In this document: positions 25,502-31,887 of the stretch, piece by piece
Layout: each line of letters opens with the position of its first letter
Numbering within the stretch: the first letter of the stretch is position 1
Assembly: GCF_003315205.1 (NCBI RefSeq)
Contig: NZ_QNRR01000007.1
Location: forward strand, 186,001 to 250,000
Reading direction: 5' to 3'
Source of the DNA: Roseimicrobium gellanilyticum
GTDB taxonomy: Bacteria; Verrucomicrobiota; Verrucomicrobiia; Verrucomicrobiales; Verrucomicrobiaceae
DNA length: 64,000 nucleotides
The notes under the pieces: generated by a model
What the model saw: only the letters and a program-made list of their open reading frames with translations
Databases searched by the model: none
What the model was told of the DNA's origin: nothing
Position numbers and translations under genes: made by a program

Positions 25502-26779
25502 ATGAAGTCTTTTGCCACATGTCTTCTCTCCCTCTCACTTTCACTCACCTGCACCGTCGGAAACGTGAACGCTGCTGACGCTGCTTTGGACCGCGTGGCT
25601 ATCGTGACTGGCACACCCGGTCTCGTGGCTTTCTGGGATTTTGTGAAGCGCGAACCTGAGGGGGCGCATCGTTTCACGGCGCATGTGCCCAAGGGTGCGT
25701 CGACGGATTACCCGCTGGATGCTGCGAACTATATCCGGGATTACTGGGGCGCGGGACGCGAGGCGACGTACGCGGACTTCCCCTTGCTGGGACGTGGGCC
25801 GTTTGGTGATGCCGTGCGGATTGTGAAGGAGACAGATGCGGACTTCCGCCCCTTCCTCTTTGTGCCGCGTTCACGATTGCATGACACGCCACTGGACATC
25901 AAGGGCGCGGGCAAGGCTGTGACGGTGGTGGTGTGGGCTATTCGTGAGAGTGGCAATCATGCGCTGGCGGGCATCTGGCATGAGGGCACGGATCTGCAGC
26001 AGAATGAAACGGCCAGCATCGCGAAGGTGGAGCGGGGTCAGCGGCAGTACGCGCTCTTTGCCGGGCTGAACAAGCTGGGCAGTGCCTGTGGCCATGTGTC
26101 GGAGAACGGCGCGAGTTCCTTCCTCAACAAGTATGCGCTGCACAAGTGCAACTCGGTGGGCCAGTCCCCTGAGGTTCCGGCGGATGCTCCTGCCGCGACG
26201 CTGGATGCTTCGTGGCAGTGTTTCGCGACGACCTTTGATGATGCGACGGATGAACTCATCGGCTGGCTGAATGGCAAGTCCGGTCAGCGTTGGCTGGAGA
26301 ATCCGAAACAGGACAAGCTCATTTCTTCTGCGTATCAGGCCTACATGCAGGGGCATTATGCGAAGCTGCCGGGCAAGCAGGAGGGTGAAGATGAGTCGTT
26401 CCCGAAGGACCAATACTACAATCCGCCCGAGGAGAAGCCGGTGAGTGTGCTGGTGGCGCGTGAGGAGGGCAATGAGCGCGTGGAGTTGCGCGAGTATCGG
26501 TATACGAAGGTGGAGGTGACGGTGAGGGATGGCAAAGAGGTGTCGCGGGAGTTGGTGGGGTTGAGTTTGAACCCGTGGTGGTATCCGCACGGCATCTATG
26601 TGCCGAAGGATGCGCAGAGTGGTGGGCCCTTCACCATCGGTCGCGTTATCCACAGCAGCCGCAGTGTGGGATTCACGGGATGGATTGGTGGGGTGGCGGT
26701 GTTTGATCGGGCGCTGAGCGAGGAGGAGTTGGCGAAACTATCGGCGATTCGGAGTGGGCCGCCGGTGGTCGTTGAATGA
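25502..26779 (+). CDS. Secreted LamG-like (concanavalin-fold) protein
   Basis: From the ATG at 25502 the product is 425 residues with a signal peptide (CLLSLSLSLTCTVGNVNAAD). A LamG-like beta-sandwich is seen in LVAFWDFVKREP, VTVVVWAIRESGNHALAGIW and GFTGWIGGVAVFDRALSEEE, the classic end of such domains. Such proteins bind or cut surface sugars in Verrucomicrobia. A longer open frame extending back to 25055 overlaps the transporter and lacks support. The island of foreign-looking genes begins 20 bases beyond its stop codon. Confidence 0.75.
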   Translation: MKSFATCLLSLSLSLTCTVGNVNAADAALDRVAIVTGTPGLVAFWDFVKREPEGAHRFTAHVPKGASTDYPLDAANYIRDYWGAGREATYADFPLLGRGPFGDAVRIVKETDADFRPFLFVPRSRLHDTPLDIKGAGKAVTVVVWAIRESGNHALAGIWHEGTDLQQNETASIAKVERGQRQYALFAGLNKLGSACGHVSENGASSFLNKYALHKCNSVGQSPEVPADAPAATLDASWQCFATTFDDATDELIGWLNGKSGQRWLENPKQDKLISSAYQAYMQGHYAKLPGKQEGEDESFPKDQYYNPPEEKPVSVLVAREEGNERVELREYRYTKVEVTVRDGKEVSRELVGLSLNPWWYPHGIYVPKDAQSGGPFTIGRVIHSSRSVGFTGWIGGVAVFDRALSEEELAKLSAIRSGPPVVVE

Positions 26780-26798
26780 GGCTTGAGAGGAATCTAGG

Positions 26799-27491
26799 TT
26801 AGCTCTCTCGGAACGAAGAGAGGCGATTCCATTGAAGCTTTTTGCGACTCCAATGAGCCGAAATGGATTGAACGAACTCTTTGCGAACAAGCTTTGCTCG
26901 TGACCCGAGCCAATCTCCGTTGTCTTTGCGGACTACGATTCCCTCAAGAACGTTGGAGCCTAGTGCACTTGGCCTTTTGCTGATCAGTTCTGTCAGTGAT
27001 GCAATGGTCACTTCACCCTTACTAACGGTAGGTACGACTGCAAGGTCGACGCCAGCAAGAAGTTTGTTTCTTCGGGAAGAACTCCAAAATCCCTTGGTGT
27101 GTCGGTCGTAGATATCAAAAGCTAGGAACCAATCAGGTAGCTCAGTGTAGGTCAAGGAGTGAGTCGCAGTGCACCATTCTCCAAACAGCATGAGATTCCT
27201 GCCTAGGAGAGAGACGAGTGTGTCTCGGTGTTGGGGTATCCAAGATGCGAGTCGCGCAAACTGCCCTGAAAACGGAGGCTCTATGTATTGTCCTCTGTTC
27301 TGAATTTGTAGAATTCCATCGAGATTCACAGAAAAGCCAAGGTTTGCGCCATCGACCTTTTCCTCGACTTCGACTGGGCCAGCCAGAAGTTCGGCGGCTT
27401 CTTGGGGGGTGAGGACTTTATCGTCTCGAGGGATGCCCTCACCCAGCCAAGCTAAGTGAGGTGTATGAGGAAATTTAAAAAAGTCACTCAT
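26799..27491 (-). CDS. RNA ligase (Rnl2/PF09414-type nucleotidyltransferase)
   Basis: From the ATG at 27491 the protein is 230 residues. It has the covalent nucleotidyl transferase motif I EEKVDGAN with the adenylated lysine predicted as Lys45. Further motifs are IQNRG (Ia), FGEWCTATHS (III), FLAFDIYDR (IIIa), EGIVVRK (IV, 183-189) and SRAKLVRKEF (V). These match RNA_ligase-family enzymes that seal nicked or broken RNA, using ATP. It is the third gene of the ATPase-PIN-ligase operon and overlaps the PIN stop by four bases. The A+T-richer composition differs from nearby genes, suggesting transfer. No extra C-terminal domain is present, so it is compact. Confidence 0.85.
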   Translation of the reverse strand: MSDFFKFPHTPHLAWLGEGIPRDDKVLTPQEAAELLAGPVEVEEKVDGANLGFSVNLDGILQIQNRGQYIEPPFSGQFARLASWIPQHRDTLVSLLGRNLMLFGEWCTATHSLTYTELPDWFLAFDIYDRHTKGFWSSSRRNKLLAGVDLAVVPTVSKGEVTIASLTELISKRPSALGSNVLEGIVVRKDNGDWLGSRAKLVRKEFVQSISAHWSRKKLQWNRLSSFRES

Positions 27492-27994
27492 CGCCCAAAT
27501 TTGTTGCGATGGAATCGATGGATGTCCGCAGGGCACAGGAACTCGACTTCAATTTCGTGGTCGGCGAGGGCTGGTGCCCAGTCAATCCACTTGGAATCTG
27601 CTGCCTGCAATATTTTAGGGTGGTCTGGATGTGCAGCGGCAACGGCAACGAATTTCCTGTCGGACGCGTCAAAATTGCTAAGTCGCTCGTCGTCAGGGAA
27701 GCTCTCGAACATGCGCTGTTCATTTGGCTCAAGGGGTACCACGTCACAGCGTTCGATATTCGCTTGGTTTTGTATAGCCCATTTCACGAAGGCATCGCCT
27801 GCCCGATTGCCTGTGAAAGGCTTCGTCTTATTCTGGTATTCTTGGAGAATTGCGCAGTCGCTATCTAAAGCAATGCGCTCCTTTAACATGATCGATTGGA
27901 GCGTTAGAGCACAGGTCGCAACGCAGTCTCCGCTGACAGCGTCGTGCTGACCATTGGCCACCAAGATTACATTTGTATCAACCAAGACGGTCAT
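27488..27994 (-). CDS. PIN-domain nuclease
   Basis: The 168-residue protein is a PIN-domain ribonuclease. It opens MTVLVDTNVIL with Asp6 in the first metal site, has acidic residues near Asp44/Asp46, SDRKFVAVA with Asp112, and AADSKW with Asp133. These four acids match the PIN catalytic set. The family cuts RNA, often tRNA or mRNA. No separate antitoxin sits next to it; the ATPase upstream and the RNA ligase downstream overlap it by four bases at each end, so the three are translated together. A toxin-type role controlled by the ATPase is inferred. Confidence 0.88.
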   Translation of the reverse strand: MTVLVDTNVILVANGQHDAVSGDCVATCALTLQSIMLKERIALDSDCAILQEYQNKTKPFTGNRAGDAFVKWAIQNQANIERCDVVPLEPNEQRMFESFPDDERLSNFDASDRKFVAVAAAHPDHPKILQAADSKWIDWAPALADHEIEVEFLCPADIHRFHRNKFGR

Positions 27995-29376
27995 TTGCCA
28001 GCAAGCTTCTTTTTCTTTTCTACGGCAGCAACAGTGCGCGCAGTGAGGTCTGCCATCTGGTCGCCAAAGAAGTTTTGTGGCCAGTTTTCAATGTCACCAA
28101 ACTGATTTAGCCGTAGAGGCTCCATCTCGGTAGCGGACTCAGTGCGGTTGCAAAAGTAAATCGCAACATCTTGAGATTCGAGAGTGCCCTCGGCTATTCG
28201 CCGTTGCAGTCGATTAAGAAAGTGCTCGGAATGGCTCTCAACAATCAGTTGAACATTGCGATCCCTGTTGTTTTCTCGGGCTTTAACCGCACAAATGAAG
28301 ACGTCTGCCAATTCTGCCTGAACTTGCGGATGCAAATGGATTTCCGGTTGCTCCAACCAAACCACCGAGTTGGCTGGGCAATAAAATGGAAGTACCAACG
28401 CTGGAAGCACCTGTGAGACCCCGAAGCCCACGTCGGTGATTTTCACTTCAGGTGATTGAGGGCCCGTCTTGATTAGAACCTCGTATTCCTTTCGCCCAGG
28501 TGCTACTGGTTTGACTGCAAAGCTGTTAATTACTCCAAGGTCCTTTAACCAACCTGCTATAAACGCACTAAAGTGGCGAAGGTGTTGCTTTGCGCTTCTG
28601 TTTAGTTTTCTGCCGCGAGCCTCGGCGGCTAGGAGCGCCGCGATTGTAAATTCCCCACGGGGCCCCACGTCTTCCGGGGTGTCGCCCGACCATTGGTAAG
28701 TTCGCCGAGGATGATCTCTGAGGGGCCCCAAGTAATATAGACTGTTGAGCATTTGTTCGGTCGCCAATGCAAAATCAGCCAAAAATCCGGCATTCTGATA
28801 TCTCGCGCGACTTGTGTCGGAGATTCGATAAAACTTCTCAGGAGCCTCTAAGGGCCACTTTCTACCAATTGCTTTTTTGAAGGAATAGTGCTGTGATTCT
28901 AGAGAATAATTTCCCTTAGGGTCGCGTGAGAACTCAGCGTCCACCGAAGGGGTCTTGTCGTCGGCGAGGGAATATCGAATAAGCTTAGTTTCAGGCTGCA
29001 ACGACGTATCTGCCGTAAGTTGCACTTTTAAGGCCAGATTTGTGCCACGATATAGTCGGAGAGGTTCGAGCGGGTTGCGAAATCGTATGGCTTCAGGGAG
29101 TTGCCAGCTAACCTCAAAGTCGAGAGTTTGACTTACATCGTGACCATGTAGACAGTCTGCAAAGGTTCCAAGATCGATAAGCGTATTCTGATCACCTAGA
29201 TGCAAAGCACGACGTCGGTCTGACGACTGAGCGGTCTGCTTAAGCGCTAATAGTAGATGCCCAAGACTGCTTTTCCCGGCGCTGTTTGCTCCAAAGATTA
29301 CTGTAAGAGGGGCGAGCTTAACTTCGCCAGTGTCCTTCCATGCTTTGAAGTTTTTGATTCGGAGCGAGGTGAGCAT
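27991..29376 (-). CDS. ABC-type AAA ATPase, OLD/DUF3696-like
   Basis: This 461-residue ATPase starts with MLTSLRIKNFKAWKDTGE and Walker A GANSAGKSS (29-37). It has an ABC-like signature VGFGVSQVLP (316-325), Walker B VVWLEQPEIHLHP (338-350, with Glu345), and a sensor His motif ESHSEHF. The C-terminus GDIENWPQNFFGDQ resembles DUF3696. Such SMC-like ATPases are sensors or motors in defence systems (OLD, Gabija, PARIS). There is no TOPRIM nuclease domain here; cleavage is presumably supplied by the PIN protein encoded next, overlapping by four bases. A promoter with a good -35/-10 pair lies upstream. Confidence 0.88.
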   Translation of the reverse strand: MLTSLRIKNFKAWKDTGEVKLAPLTVIFGANSAGKSSLGHLLLALKQTAQSSDRRRALHLGDQNTLIDLGTFADCLHGHDVSQTLDFEVSWQLPEAIRFRNPLEPLRLYRGTNLALKVQLTADTSLQPETKLIRYSLADDKTPSVDAEFSRDPKGNYSLESQHYSFKKAIGRKWPLEAPEKFYRISDTSRARYQNAGFLADFALATEQMLNSLYYLGPLRDHPRRTYQWSGDTPEDVGPRGEFTIAALLAAEARGRKLNRSAKQHLRHFSAFIAGWLKDLGVINSFAVKPVAPGRKEYEVLIKTGPQSPEVKITDVGFGVSQVLPALVLPFYCPANSVVWLEQPEIHLHPQVQAELADVFICAVKARENNRDRNVQLIVESHSEHFLNRLQRRIAEGTLESQDVAIYFCNRTESATEMEPLRLNQFGDIENWPQNFFGDQMADLTARTVAAVEKKKKLAGK

Positions 29377-29406
29377 GCCACTGGGGTGTTACGCTTTCAG
29401 ACGTAC

Positions 29407-29420
29407 TACTTGATTAAGTA
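29407..29420. promoter_or_regulatory. Palindrome at the transcription start of the ATPase-PIN-ligase operon
   Basis: TACTT-GATT-AAGTA lies just downstream of the -10 box, about where transcription would begin. Its position fits an operator for a repressor. No regulator gene is linked, so the binding protein is unknown. Confidence 0.45.
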
Positions 29421-29425
29421 ATACG

Positions 29426-29454
29426 ATTCTATTTTGTTAATACAGCATTGTAAA
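29426..29454 (-). promoter_or_regulatory. Sigma-70 promoter of the ATPase-PIN-ligase operon
   Basis: On the minus strand, -35 TTTACA (29454-29449) is followed by a 17-base spacer and -10 TAGAAT (29431-29426). It lies about 50 bases before the ATPase start codon in an A+T-rich patch. Confidence 0.75.
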
Positions 29455-29502
29455 TGAAATGCTTTCGACCGGAGTAGTTTAATGTTGAATTGAACACGAG
29501 GT

Positions 29503-31764
29503 TCAGGGCAGCGGGAAGCGCTTGTTCAACTCCGCCACTTCGCTGCGAATCTTCTCCAGCACTTCGGGCTTCTCACGGCCTTCGAGTGCCTCGTGGATCC
29601 ACGCAGCGATCTGCTTCATCTCAGCTTCCTTCATGCCGCGAGTGGTCACAGCAGGAGTGCCGACGCGGATGCCGCCGCCGAGGGTGATCTTCTCGGTGTC
29701 GAAGGGGATGCCGTTCTTGTTCACGGTGATGCCGGCGTGGTCGAGGGTCTCGGAGGCAATCTTGCCGTTCAAGCCGCGGGGTCGCAGGTCCACGAGCATG
29801 AGGTGATTGTCCGTGCCGCCGCTCACGATGCGGTAGCCGAGGGTGCCGAGCTCGGCGGCGAGCGCCTGGGCGTTCTTCACAATCTGCTTTTGGTATTCCT
29901 TGAAGCCGGGTTGGAGTGCTTCATGGAAGCACACCGCCTTCGCCGCAATCACGTGCATGAGCGGGCCACCCTGGGTGCCGGGGAAGACCATGGCGTTGAT
30001 TTTCTTTGCGAGGTCTTCCTGGTTCGTCAACACAATGCCACCACGCGGACCGCGCAGGCTCTTGTGCGTGGTGGAGGTGACGAAGTCTGCATACTCCATG
30101 GGGGAGGGATGCACGCCACCAGCCACGAGACCGGCGATGTGAGCCATGTCTACGAAGAGATAGGCGCCCACGCTCTTCGCGATCTCGGACATGCGGGCGA
30201 AATCAATCACACGCGGATAGGCACTGGCACCGGCGGTGATCATCTTGGGCTTCACCTCCTGCGCCTGCTTGGCGAGGGCATCATAGTCGATGCGCTCATC
30301 CTTCTCGCTCACGCCATAGTGGGTCACCTCATAGAATTTGCCGCTGAAGTTTGCGCTGTGACCATGCGTGAGGTGGCCGCCGTGGGCCAGGTTCATGGTC
30401 AGAATCTTGTCGCCGGGCTGCAGCACGCTGAAGTACACGGCTGCATTCGCCTGCGATCCGGAGTGCGGCTGCACGTTGGCATACTTCGCTCCGAAGAGTT
30501 CGCACACGCGATCGATGGCAAGCTGCTCGGCCTTGTCCACCTCTTCACAGCCACCGTACCAGCGGCGTGCGGGATAGCCTTCCGCATACTTGTTCGTGAG
30601 GCATGAACCCTGCGCGGCCTGGACGGCGCGGCTCGCGAAGTTCTCGCTCGCGATGAGTTCGATGTTGCCCTGCTGGCGCTGCTCTTCGCCTTCGATGACA
30701 TCGGCGATGGCAGGGTCCTTCTGGCGGACCACATCCGCAGCGCGCTTGCGTAGGGAATTCATCTTGTTCACACGGCGCAGGTGGCGCTCACCGCTGGCTG
30801 TTGCGGTGTTGATGAAGGCTTCCACAATGGCGATGCCCTCTGCGGTGGAAGTCGTGGTGCCGGCGAGGCAGACCACGTTGGAGGAATTGTGTTCGCGGGT
30901 GATGGCGGCGGTTTTCGCATCATGCACCAGCGCGGCCTGGATGCCGGGGTGGCGGTTCGCCGTGATGCTCATGCCAATGCCGGTGGTGCACACCAGCACG
31001 CCGGCGTCTGCTTCCCCACTCAGCACGCGGGCGCACACCGCCTCGGCGAAGTCGGGATAGTCCACGCTGTCCTTACCGTGCGTGCCGAGGTCATGCACCG
31101 TCTTGCCAATACCACGCAGGTGGGCCACGAGAGCGTCCTTGAGGTCGATGCCGCCGTGATCAGAGCCAAGGGCAATGCTCTGCACCAGGGTATTCGTGGC
31201 GGAAGAGGCGGCGGGATCAGAGGCGCTGGCGGAGGAGTGCATGGCTTGGGGCGTCGGTGCGGTGGCGGTGGCGGTGGGTTGGTGGTTCCTGTCGAAAGTC
31301 TGGTCGATGTAGGCGAGGATGGTCGGCAGCAGTTTCTGCAGCGTCTTGAGTGTCTGCTCGTAGTCGCGGCGGCCACCACCGAAGGGATCCATGATGTCCC
31401 GGCCACGAATGCTGTCATCCGGTGAGAACTCGCTGAGCAGGTAGACCTTGTCTGCTGCCTCCGGATACATCATCTCGACCGCATGGAGATGCCCCGCGCT
31501 CATGGCAAAGATGTGGGTCACATCTTTGAGCAGGTCGGAGGAAATCTGCCGGCTCCGGTGGCCGGAGAGGTCGAAGCCCAGCTCTCTCAGAAGCTGTACG
31601 GTGTGTGTGGCGGGGAAGTCTCCCTCATGGGCTCCCACGCCTGCGGAGAGTACCGCATAGTCCTGCCGCTCCGCCACCATGCCACGAAAGAGTGCCTCCG
31701 CCATGGGACTGCGGCAGGTATTGCCGGTGCAGACGAAGAGGACGCGTTTCAGAGCGGAAGACAC
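29503..31764 (-). CDS. glyA: Three-enzyme fusion: low-molecular-weight protein-tyrosine phosphatase, ribose-5-phosphate isomerase B, serine hydroxymethyltransferase
   Basis: One uninterrupted frame encodes three enzymes. From the GTG at 31764 (753 residues; a TTG at 31833 is an alternative) the N-terminal 160 residues form an LMW-PTP with P-loop CTGNTCRS and IMDPFGGG. A Pro/Ala/Thr-rich linker follows. Then comes RpiB (about 195-333) with [13 protein letters not shown] and [13 protein letters not shown], interconverting ribose and ribulose 5-phosphate. The last 418 residues are a complete SHMT with [20 protein letters not shown], and PLP lysine site [12 protein letters not shown], making glycine and methylene-THF from serine. 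An internal ATG at 30762 could also start SHMT alone, but no stop codon or Shine-Dalgarno separates the parts. Confidence 0.9.
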
Positions 31765-31887
31765 AAGCGGGAAGGGAGCAGGTGGCTGCGGAAAGGGGGA
31801 TAGACAACTTGCTCCGCTCCGGGGATTTGTCAAAAGGCGGGAGGTCCGCCAAGTCCCTGACCGCTTTCTCGCGTGTGCCGTGCCTGC

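Follow-up and report, generated by a model that had tools for sequence, protein, structure and literature searches.

The subject of this report is a three-gene operon of Roseimicrobium gellanilyticum, found in a stretch of 64,000 nucleotides (nt) of contig NZ_QNRR01000007.1 that we call the window; all coordinates are positions in it. The operon genes are all on the minus strand, and encode an OLD-like ABC ATPase, a predicted PIN-domain ribonuclease and a predicted ATP-dependent RNA ligase (Table 1). By their profile matches the ATPase and PIN proteins are a catalogued candidate defence system, HEC-03 of PADLOC. A preliminary description of the locus had held that the set matches no known system and may be undescribed, and the HEC-03 models rule this out for the ATPase and PIN, leaving only the ligase, as a third component, new with respect to the profiles and papers searched. 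The search against defence-system profiles that it proposed has thus matched two of the three proteins, with the ligase unmatched.

Table 1. The operon, its gene overlaps and the inserted segment, in window coordinates
Feature	Position	Strand	Remarks
ATPase	27991..29376	-	461 amino acids (aa); first gene; OLD-like ABC ATPase with C-terminal DUF3696; PADLOC HEC-03B
PIN-domain ribonuclease (predicted)	27488..27994	-	168 aa; second gene; D6, E52, D112, D133; PADLOC HEC-03A
ATP-dependent RNA ligase (predicted)	26799..27491	-	230 aa; third gene; K45 in EEKVDG; no PADLOC match
ATGA overlap, 4 nt	27991..27994	-	ATPase stop / PIN start
ATGA overlap, 4 nt	27488..27491	-	PIN stop / ligase start
Inserted island	26770..29506		no blastn match in same-genus genome G288; flanks 188 bases apart there

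With regard to the structure of the locus the preliminary description has held up well. The coordinates of the open reading frames (ORFs) confirm the three genes, their strand and the 4-nt overlap at both junctions. The region was said to be richer in A+T than its surroundings, and the guanine plus cytosine (GC) content is indeed 0.502 for the operon as against 0.605 and 0.594 for the 5 kb to the left and right, a value as low as this being found in only 0.4% of stretches of that size across the window. It was also said to look like a transferred island, and there is an empty site in G288. Homology to that genome ends at window position 26769 and restarts at 29507, with the 188 G288 bases between giving no blastn match, and the products of the flanking genes are 98% and 92% identical in G288, where the two genes are side by side. 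The operon is thus an accessory insertion, as the flanks adjoin in G288 without it. No convincing repeats were found at the ends of the island.

From their sequences we take the flanks to be a glyA frame and a gene for a LamG-type protein. Window positions 29503-31833 on the minus strand form a single ORF of 776 aa, possibly a conserved fusion, with parts that we presume to be low-molecular-weight phosphatase-like, RpiB-like and glyA. In relatives, too, the open frames at this place are longer than glyA itself.

The three predicted proteins

The ATPase falls in Pfam families AAA_15, AAA_21 and DUF3696, with no nuclease domain recognised, and matches HEC-03B over residues 1-457 of 461 (E 9.6e-136). 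The match to AriA of PARIS (1e-24) is far weaker than that to HEC-03B (1e-135), and that to NsnB of Menshen is 3e-61. The catalytic residues named in the preliminary description, K35 in the ATPase, D6, D112 and D133 in the PIN protein and K45 in the ligase, are all present and are conserved in relatives. Walker A K35 is in 75/77 ATPase relatives, the other two being cut by contig ends. Three Aquabacterium ATPases (L094, L097 and L107) have altered signature residues, and that of L093 lacks E342. A phage search with the ATPase gave partial matches only.

The second gene product is, as modelled, a PIN protein of the VapC fold with four acidic residues. Its match to Pfam PIN_3 is under the family cut-off (E 0.08), and the assignment rests instead on the match to HEC-03A (E 1.8e-24, residues 1-157 of 168) and on the AlphaFold2 (AF2) model, which has a predicted local distance difference test (pLDDT) score of 96.5. 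Foldseek gave no match under 1e-3 with this model. When its candidates were aligned with VIA-align, VapC toxins were at the top with Z 9.8 and a root mean square deviation (rmsd) of 3.0 over 123 residues, a result to be read with the tool's own caution that a best Z of 7 to 8 is often reached. Searches of PDB sequences and of phages gave no match. D6 and E52 are in 93/93 relatives, and D109, D112 and D133 in 92/93, the exception being a broken PIN (L114).

In the case of the third gene, the match to Pfam RNA_ligase (PF09414) has E 3e-31, and PADLOC models give none up to E 1. The AF2 model (pLDDT 92.7) has as its best Foldseek match a Naegleria RNA ligase (E 2.8e-8, template modelling score 0.59 on the query, rmsd 9.2), the title of that structure describing it as nick-sealing; REL1, archaeal RNA ligases and T4 Rnl2 follow. 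By sequence profile the best PDB matches are archaeal ligases (E 3e-6). Residues E44, K45, D47, G48, R66, G67, E105, F125, D126, E183 and K200 are in 87/87 relatives and R203 in 74/87, and we take K45, E105, F125, E183 and K200 to represent motif I and motifs III, IIIa, IV and V. On sequence, then, the third gene product is an ATP-dependent RNA ligase, Rnl2-like and with the nucleotidyltransferase domain only. It ends about 28 aa past motif V, in a C-terminus modelled at lower confidence, and no extra RNA-binding domain is recognisable in its 230 aa. Pfam and PADLOC scans found no kinase-phosphatase, methyltransferase or other end-healing enzyme among the three operon genes. The phage search with the ligase gave distant matches only, with at most 31% identity among the matches listed, and a viral-contig search with P0003 alone gave no relative. 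The genome also has a second, stand-alone RNA ligase (L012, G000:C6:116084-116782), which is outside the clade of system ligases discussed below and has close relatives in the family members G187, G217 and G234.

Occurrence and gene content in other genomes

A scan of species genomes with a PIN alignment gave 249 relatives, and the best 80 were kept. All three genes are present in 60/80 loci, in all 60 in the same order and on one strand, and the ligase is downstream of PIN in 76/80. PIN and ligase without the ATPase were found in 16/80 loci, among them L052, which has its start at the edge of a contig, and ATPase and PIN without the ligase in 4/80, among them L069, which stops at a contig edge. 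The 60 include a locus with a gap of 1.4 kb between ATPase and PIN (L045), the one with the broken PIN, and two with the ATPase cut by a contig end (L059 and L071). With gene starts chosen by script, 4-nt overlaps are present at the ATPase-PIN junction in 40/60, at the PIN-ligase junction in 42/60, and at both in 31/60.

Going by record titles, the three-gene form occurs in Verrucomicrobiota, Pseudomonadota, Thermodesulfovibrionales (Nitrospirota) and Myxococcota, and also in Desulfobulbaceae, in metagenome-assembled genomes (MAGs) of Acidobacteria and on a Rhodococcus plasmid, although MAG binning may err, as a neighbour in the Chloroflexota locus L088 is 99% identical to that of L080. Plasmids of Aeromonas, Azotobacter, Tistrella and Rhodococcus, some of them conjugative or mobilizable, also carry the operon, as do three IMG/VR contigs (L116, L117 and L121); a search of E. 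coli genomes with the operon DNA of Aeromonas as query found none. The module is mobile and widely conserved, and the possibility that the operon is present only here is ruled out by the plasmid copies and the 80 genome loci. The preliminary description had looked to conservation of the whole set in distant bacteria, which is found recurrently and with the catalytic residues intact, and had treated restriction to this locus, loss of those residues, or PIN or ligase alone with unrelated partners as grounds for giving up the idea of a system. These are in the main not seen, although five loci lack the ligase and 15 the ATPase.

As a less biased control, PADLOC's own HEC-03A model was run over 387 genomes of the phylum. 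It gave seven matches, one weak (E 9e-4) and six strong, own genome included; the ligase adjoins in five of the six strong ones and is absent in G129. A profile of system ligases scored above 360 bits in exactly those five genomes and no more than about 200 bits in the others, the profile including four ligases from the five. The window ligase alone gave the same split over 288 genomes, with 204-223 bits as against 116 or less. These controls and the downstream pairing in 76/80 loci rule out the ligase being a chance neighbour.

The ligase tree, rooted at the midpoint, has 74 rows: 46 chosen system ligases, 21 from viral contigs and 7 others. All 46 belong to a single clade of 48 (support 99/94), separate from most of the phage and stand-alone ligases; its two other members are L118, at the end of a contig, and L120, on a long branch and of unsure placement. 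A newly captured phage ligase is ruled out, as only two of the sampled viral-contig ligases fall within the clade that the system ligases form. The L120 ligase (L120:5998-6663) stands alone in a phage-like contig of 80.6 kb (IMGVR_UViG_3300028029_000002), with no PIN or ATPase within 6 kb; it is 43% identical to the window ligase, and is a candidate for phage counter-defence by resealing.

Over 67 three-gene loci the correlation of pairwise distances is 0.84 for PIN and ligase, 0.53 for ATPase and PIN and 0.51 for ATPase and ligase, none of them reached in 2000 permutations (0/2000 each); for PIN and ligase over 85 loci it is 0.74. The mean identity of the Tistrella proteins to the rest is 0.36 for the ATPase, 0.52 for PIN and 0.56 for the ligase. 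On these correlations and identities the closest link is that between PIN and ligase.

The 15 ATPase-less loci other than L052 (L050, L053-L058, L060-L065, L067 and L070) are in an Aquabacterium/Burkholderiales group and keep the active-site residues, and tblastn found no ATPase of this kind in them. The seven of their ligases sampled in the tree form one derived clade (100/100), and the ATPase has thus probably been lost a single time. Directly upstream in 10 of the 15 is a minus-strand gene of 568-620 aa; the six of these that were scanned encode proteins with AAA_22 and PG_binding_1, five with a GspA_C39-like match. The locus looks like a fixed, domesticated one, and the persistence of the 15 indicates that the PIN-ligase pair is functional, or at least harmless, without the ATPase.

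For the genomic neighbours we took the next gene on each side of ATPase-bearing loci, if on the same strand and of 140-1110 aa. Of the 68 genes that this gave, 66 were scanned, the two of Tistrella being left out. Among the first 25 of 94 Pfam families are ResIII (6), N6_Mtase (3), Eco57I (3) and HNH_2 (2), and among the first 25 of 321 PADLOC families REase_III (4), type I MTase (3), mad2 (3) and DrmMI (2). No kinase-phosphatase or methyltransferase of the Pnkp/Hen1 type is among the first 25 families of either list. In Acinetobacter soli and in L098 an HNH gene is in the place of the ligase, beside an N6 methylase; the A. soli copy, its ATPase annotated in two pieces, adjoins a methylase and helicase with the HNH gene. 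Treatment of that copy as Hma-embedded was dropped, as PADLOC names the methylase DrmMI-like. In five loci (L075, L076, L079, L093 and L106) the three-gene operon is between two genes that are of similar size in all five, which points to a shared chromosomal site; by their sizes the two are likely the Na+/H+ antiporter and ATP-synthase-type genes that were each counted five times among the neighbours.

Possible functions of the operon

Ends with a 3'-hydroxyl (3'-OH) and a 5'-phosphate are exactly those joined by nick-sealing ligases of the Rnl2/Rnl5 type. These are the ends that VapC toxins leave, according to the relevant part of PMC7180214. Ends of the VapC type would suit a nick-sealing ligase without any end healing, and we therefore read the operon as a cutter that is licensed by the ATPase and comes with a sealer of its own, to limit or reverse the damage. 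What the analysis shows is the gene content and order, how mobile and conserved the module is, the predicted folds and the presence of the catalytic residues. In favour of the reading are the strict gene order and tight junctions, the correlated divergence of PIN and ligase, the single clade of system ligases, the PIN-ligase pairs that persist without an ATPase, and some of the neighbours. The OLD-like ABC ATPase would sense a trigger and license the PIN ribonuclease of VapC fold, which would cut cellular or phage RNA. The minimal ligase would then rejoin the 3'-OH/5'-phosphate break made by PIN itself, so that leaky or transient cutting may be undone and the cell could recover, and the role of the module would be phage defence. 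For a mobile module of defence type in which an ATPase-gated PIN cuts RNA and the ligase reseals the same break we see an even chance. That it is a reversible immune effector, with cutter and sealer of the same cut, matched end chemistry and control by an ABC ATPase, we put forward more tentatively, at somewhat under even chances. If it is, immunity would rest on how cutting and sealing are balanced and could be turned off once the threat is past, and a phage could overcome it by carrying nothing but a ligase, as L120 may do.

Several observations weigh against this interpretation. Five loci (L022, L033, L068, L072 and L098) have an intact PIN with no adjoining ligase and no ligase remnant detectable by tblastn, and in L018, an Aeromonas caviae plasmid (NZ_AP022111.1), the ligase is split by an IS256-type insertion element with ATPase and PIN intact. 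The ligase is thus not an obligatory antitoxin, and a strict antitoxin role for it is weakened by such ligase-less and ligase-broken loci. Unaided sealing is also unsure, as the C-terminal domain of the full T4 Rnl2 appears to be missing. The query alignment for the 80 loci was biased, with 9/11 rows from ligase-bearing loci, so that the sample leans that way. With regard to defence, the first 25 of 94 Pfam families also include ordinary neighbours, among them five Na+/H+ antiporters and five ATP-synthase genes, and the counts for defence neighbours are inflated, since four of the upstream genes are copies that share 94-99% identity and near copies also enter into the REase_III count of 4. Some neighbours and the plasmid carriage suggest a defence association, the neighbour counts being without a background rate.

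An alternative is that the ligase is a general RNA-repair arm for cuts made by toxins of phages or rivals, with ATPase and PIN a separate system, as in HEC-03, and the two being anti-attack functions that travel together. The five ATPase-PIN loci without a ligase would fit this, as would the other ligases of the family that stand alone in phage-like contigs and bacteria. However the strict gene order and overlaps, the PIN-ligase divergence correlation of 0.84 and the existence of PIN-ligase pairs without the ATPase weigh against it, and with no end-healing kinase or phosphatase in the window operon 2',3'-cyclic ends would be beyond its repair alone. We consider this unlikely.

The tight linkage of PIN and ligase could also mean that they are an RNA-processing pair, directed by the ATPase to excise, circularise or edit a specific RNA, with the product as the purpose. 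The 15 ATPase-less pairs, 10 of them with the 568-620 aa upstream gene, resemble a fixed locus, and REL1, an RNA-editing ligase, is among the fold matches of the ligase, but conflict is the better fit for plasmid carriage, the empty site in the sister genome, the HEC-03 matches and the VapC-like PIN, and we think processing distinctly unlikely. Least probable is a toxin-antitoxin or addiction module for plasmid maintenance and not phage defence, with PIN as toxin and the ligase as enzymatic antitoxin: the toxin-like VapC fold, the conjugative and mobilizable plasmids and the presence of other addiction-type genes (Hok/Gef and AbiEii) near the Aeromonas copies are in its favour, yet it needs an indispensable ligase where ligase-less and ligase-broken loci keep an intact PIN, an ABC ATPase is presumably unusual in such modules, and the contigs that carry the window copy and most of the 80 genome loci have no plasmid label.

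To our knowledge an RNA-cutting defence either arrests or kills its host cell, or is countered by repair enzymes of the phage. If the reading of the operon as a licensed cutter with its own sealer is right, a bacterial system with the sealer beside the cutter would have a built-in recovery step, and lone phage ligases would be possible counter-defence. For annotators it matters that HEC-03 as modelled in PADLOC misses a recurrent third gene.

Comparison with known systems

The ATPase and PIN protein match HEC-03B and HEC-03A over nearly full length and are adjacent in one operon, as in HEC-03, the comparison being of protein models alone. The window operon differs in having an RNA ligase that matches no PADLOC model, and in not being embedded in another defence system. 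HEC stands for the 'Hma-embedded candidate' class of Payne et al. 2024 (bioRxiv 10.1101/2024.01.29.577857), as the relevant part of PMC12988326 has it, and HEC-03 is named without description in the corresponding part of PMC13356809. We take the embedding behind the name to be the way of discovery and not part of the definition. No description of the ATPase-PIN-ligase trio was found in the open-licence PMC literature, which does not establish its absence from print.

PARIS (AriA-AriB) likewise has an ABC ATPase beside a separate RNA-acting nuclease, which acts on transfer RNA (tRNA) according to a section of PMC12409363. In the window operon the nuclease is a PIN and not the Toprim AriB, a ligase is added, and PIN and ligase match no AriB model. 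With Menshen (Nsn) the likeness is confined to the ATPase, which matches NsnB; PIN and ligase match no Nsn model, so that NsnA and NsnC are not found beside it. In the case of VapBC, the window PIN is nearest in fold to VapC toxins, but there is no VapB-type antitoxin gene among the three, the upstream gene being that for the 461-aa ATPase that overlaps the PIN start. PIN domains have been validated in other defence systems, as reported in part of PMC13092281.

The ligase shares the nucleotidyltransferase fold with T4 Rnl2, the Naegleria enzyme and REL1, which are among the nearest solved structures, and differs in its 230-aa length, with no recognisable extra RNA-binding domain. The Pnkp1-Rnl-Hen1 system likewise uses an RNA ligase in bacteria to repair RNA damaged by ribotoxins (PMC4411300), but the window operon is without a kinase-phosphatase or methyltransferase and has a ribonuclease and an ABC ATPase in the operon. 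Cutting and resealing of RNA in phage conflict is known from PrrC and phage T4, where the Pnk-Rnl1 pair repairs the PrrC-cut tRNA (PMC12409363, in the same section). There the cutter and sealer are on opposing sides and the ends need a kinase, whereas in the window operon both are in one bacterial operon and the ends would be expected to need no healing. The nearest reported precedent that we found is that of MazF and RtcB, which are presumably not encoded as one operon. RtcB reverses the MazF cut in E. coli, going by part of PMC5408214, and although its ligase is of an unrelated family and the end chemistry differs, it is a case of a bacterial RNA ligase undoing the cut of a bacterial toxin nuclease.

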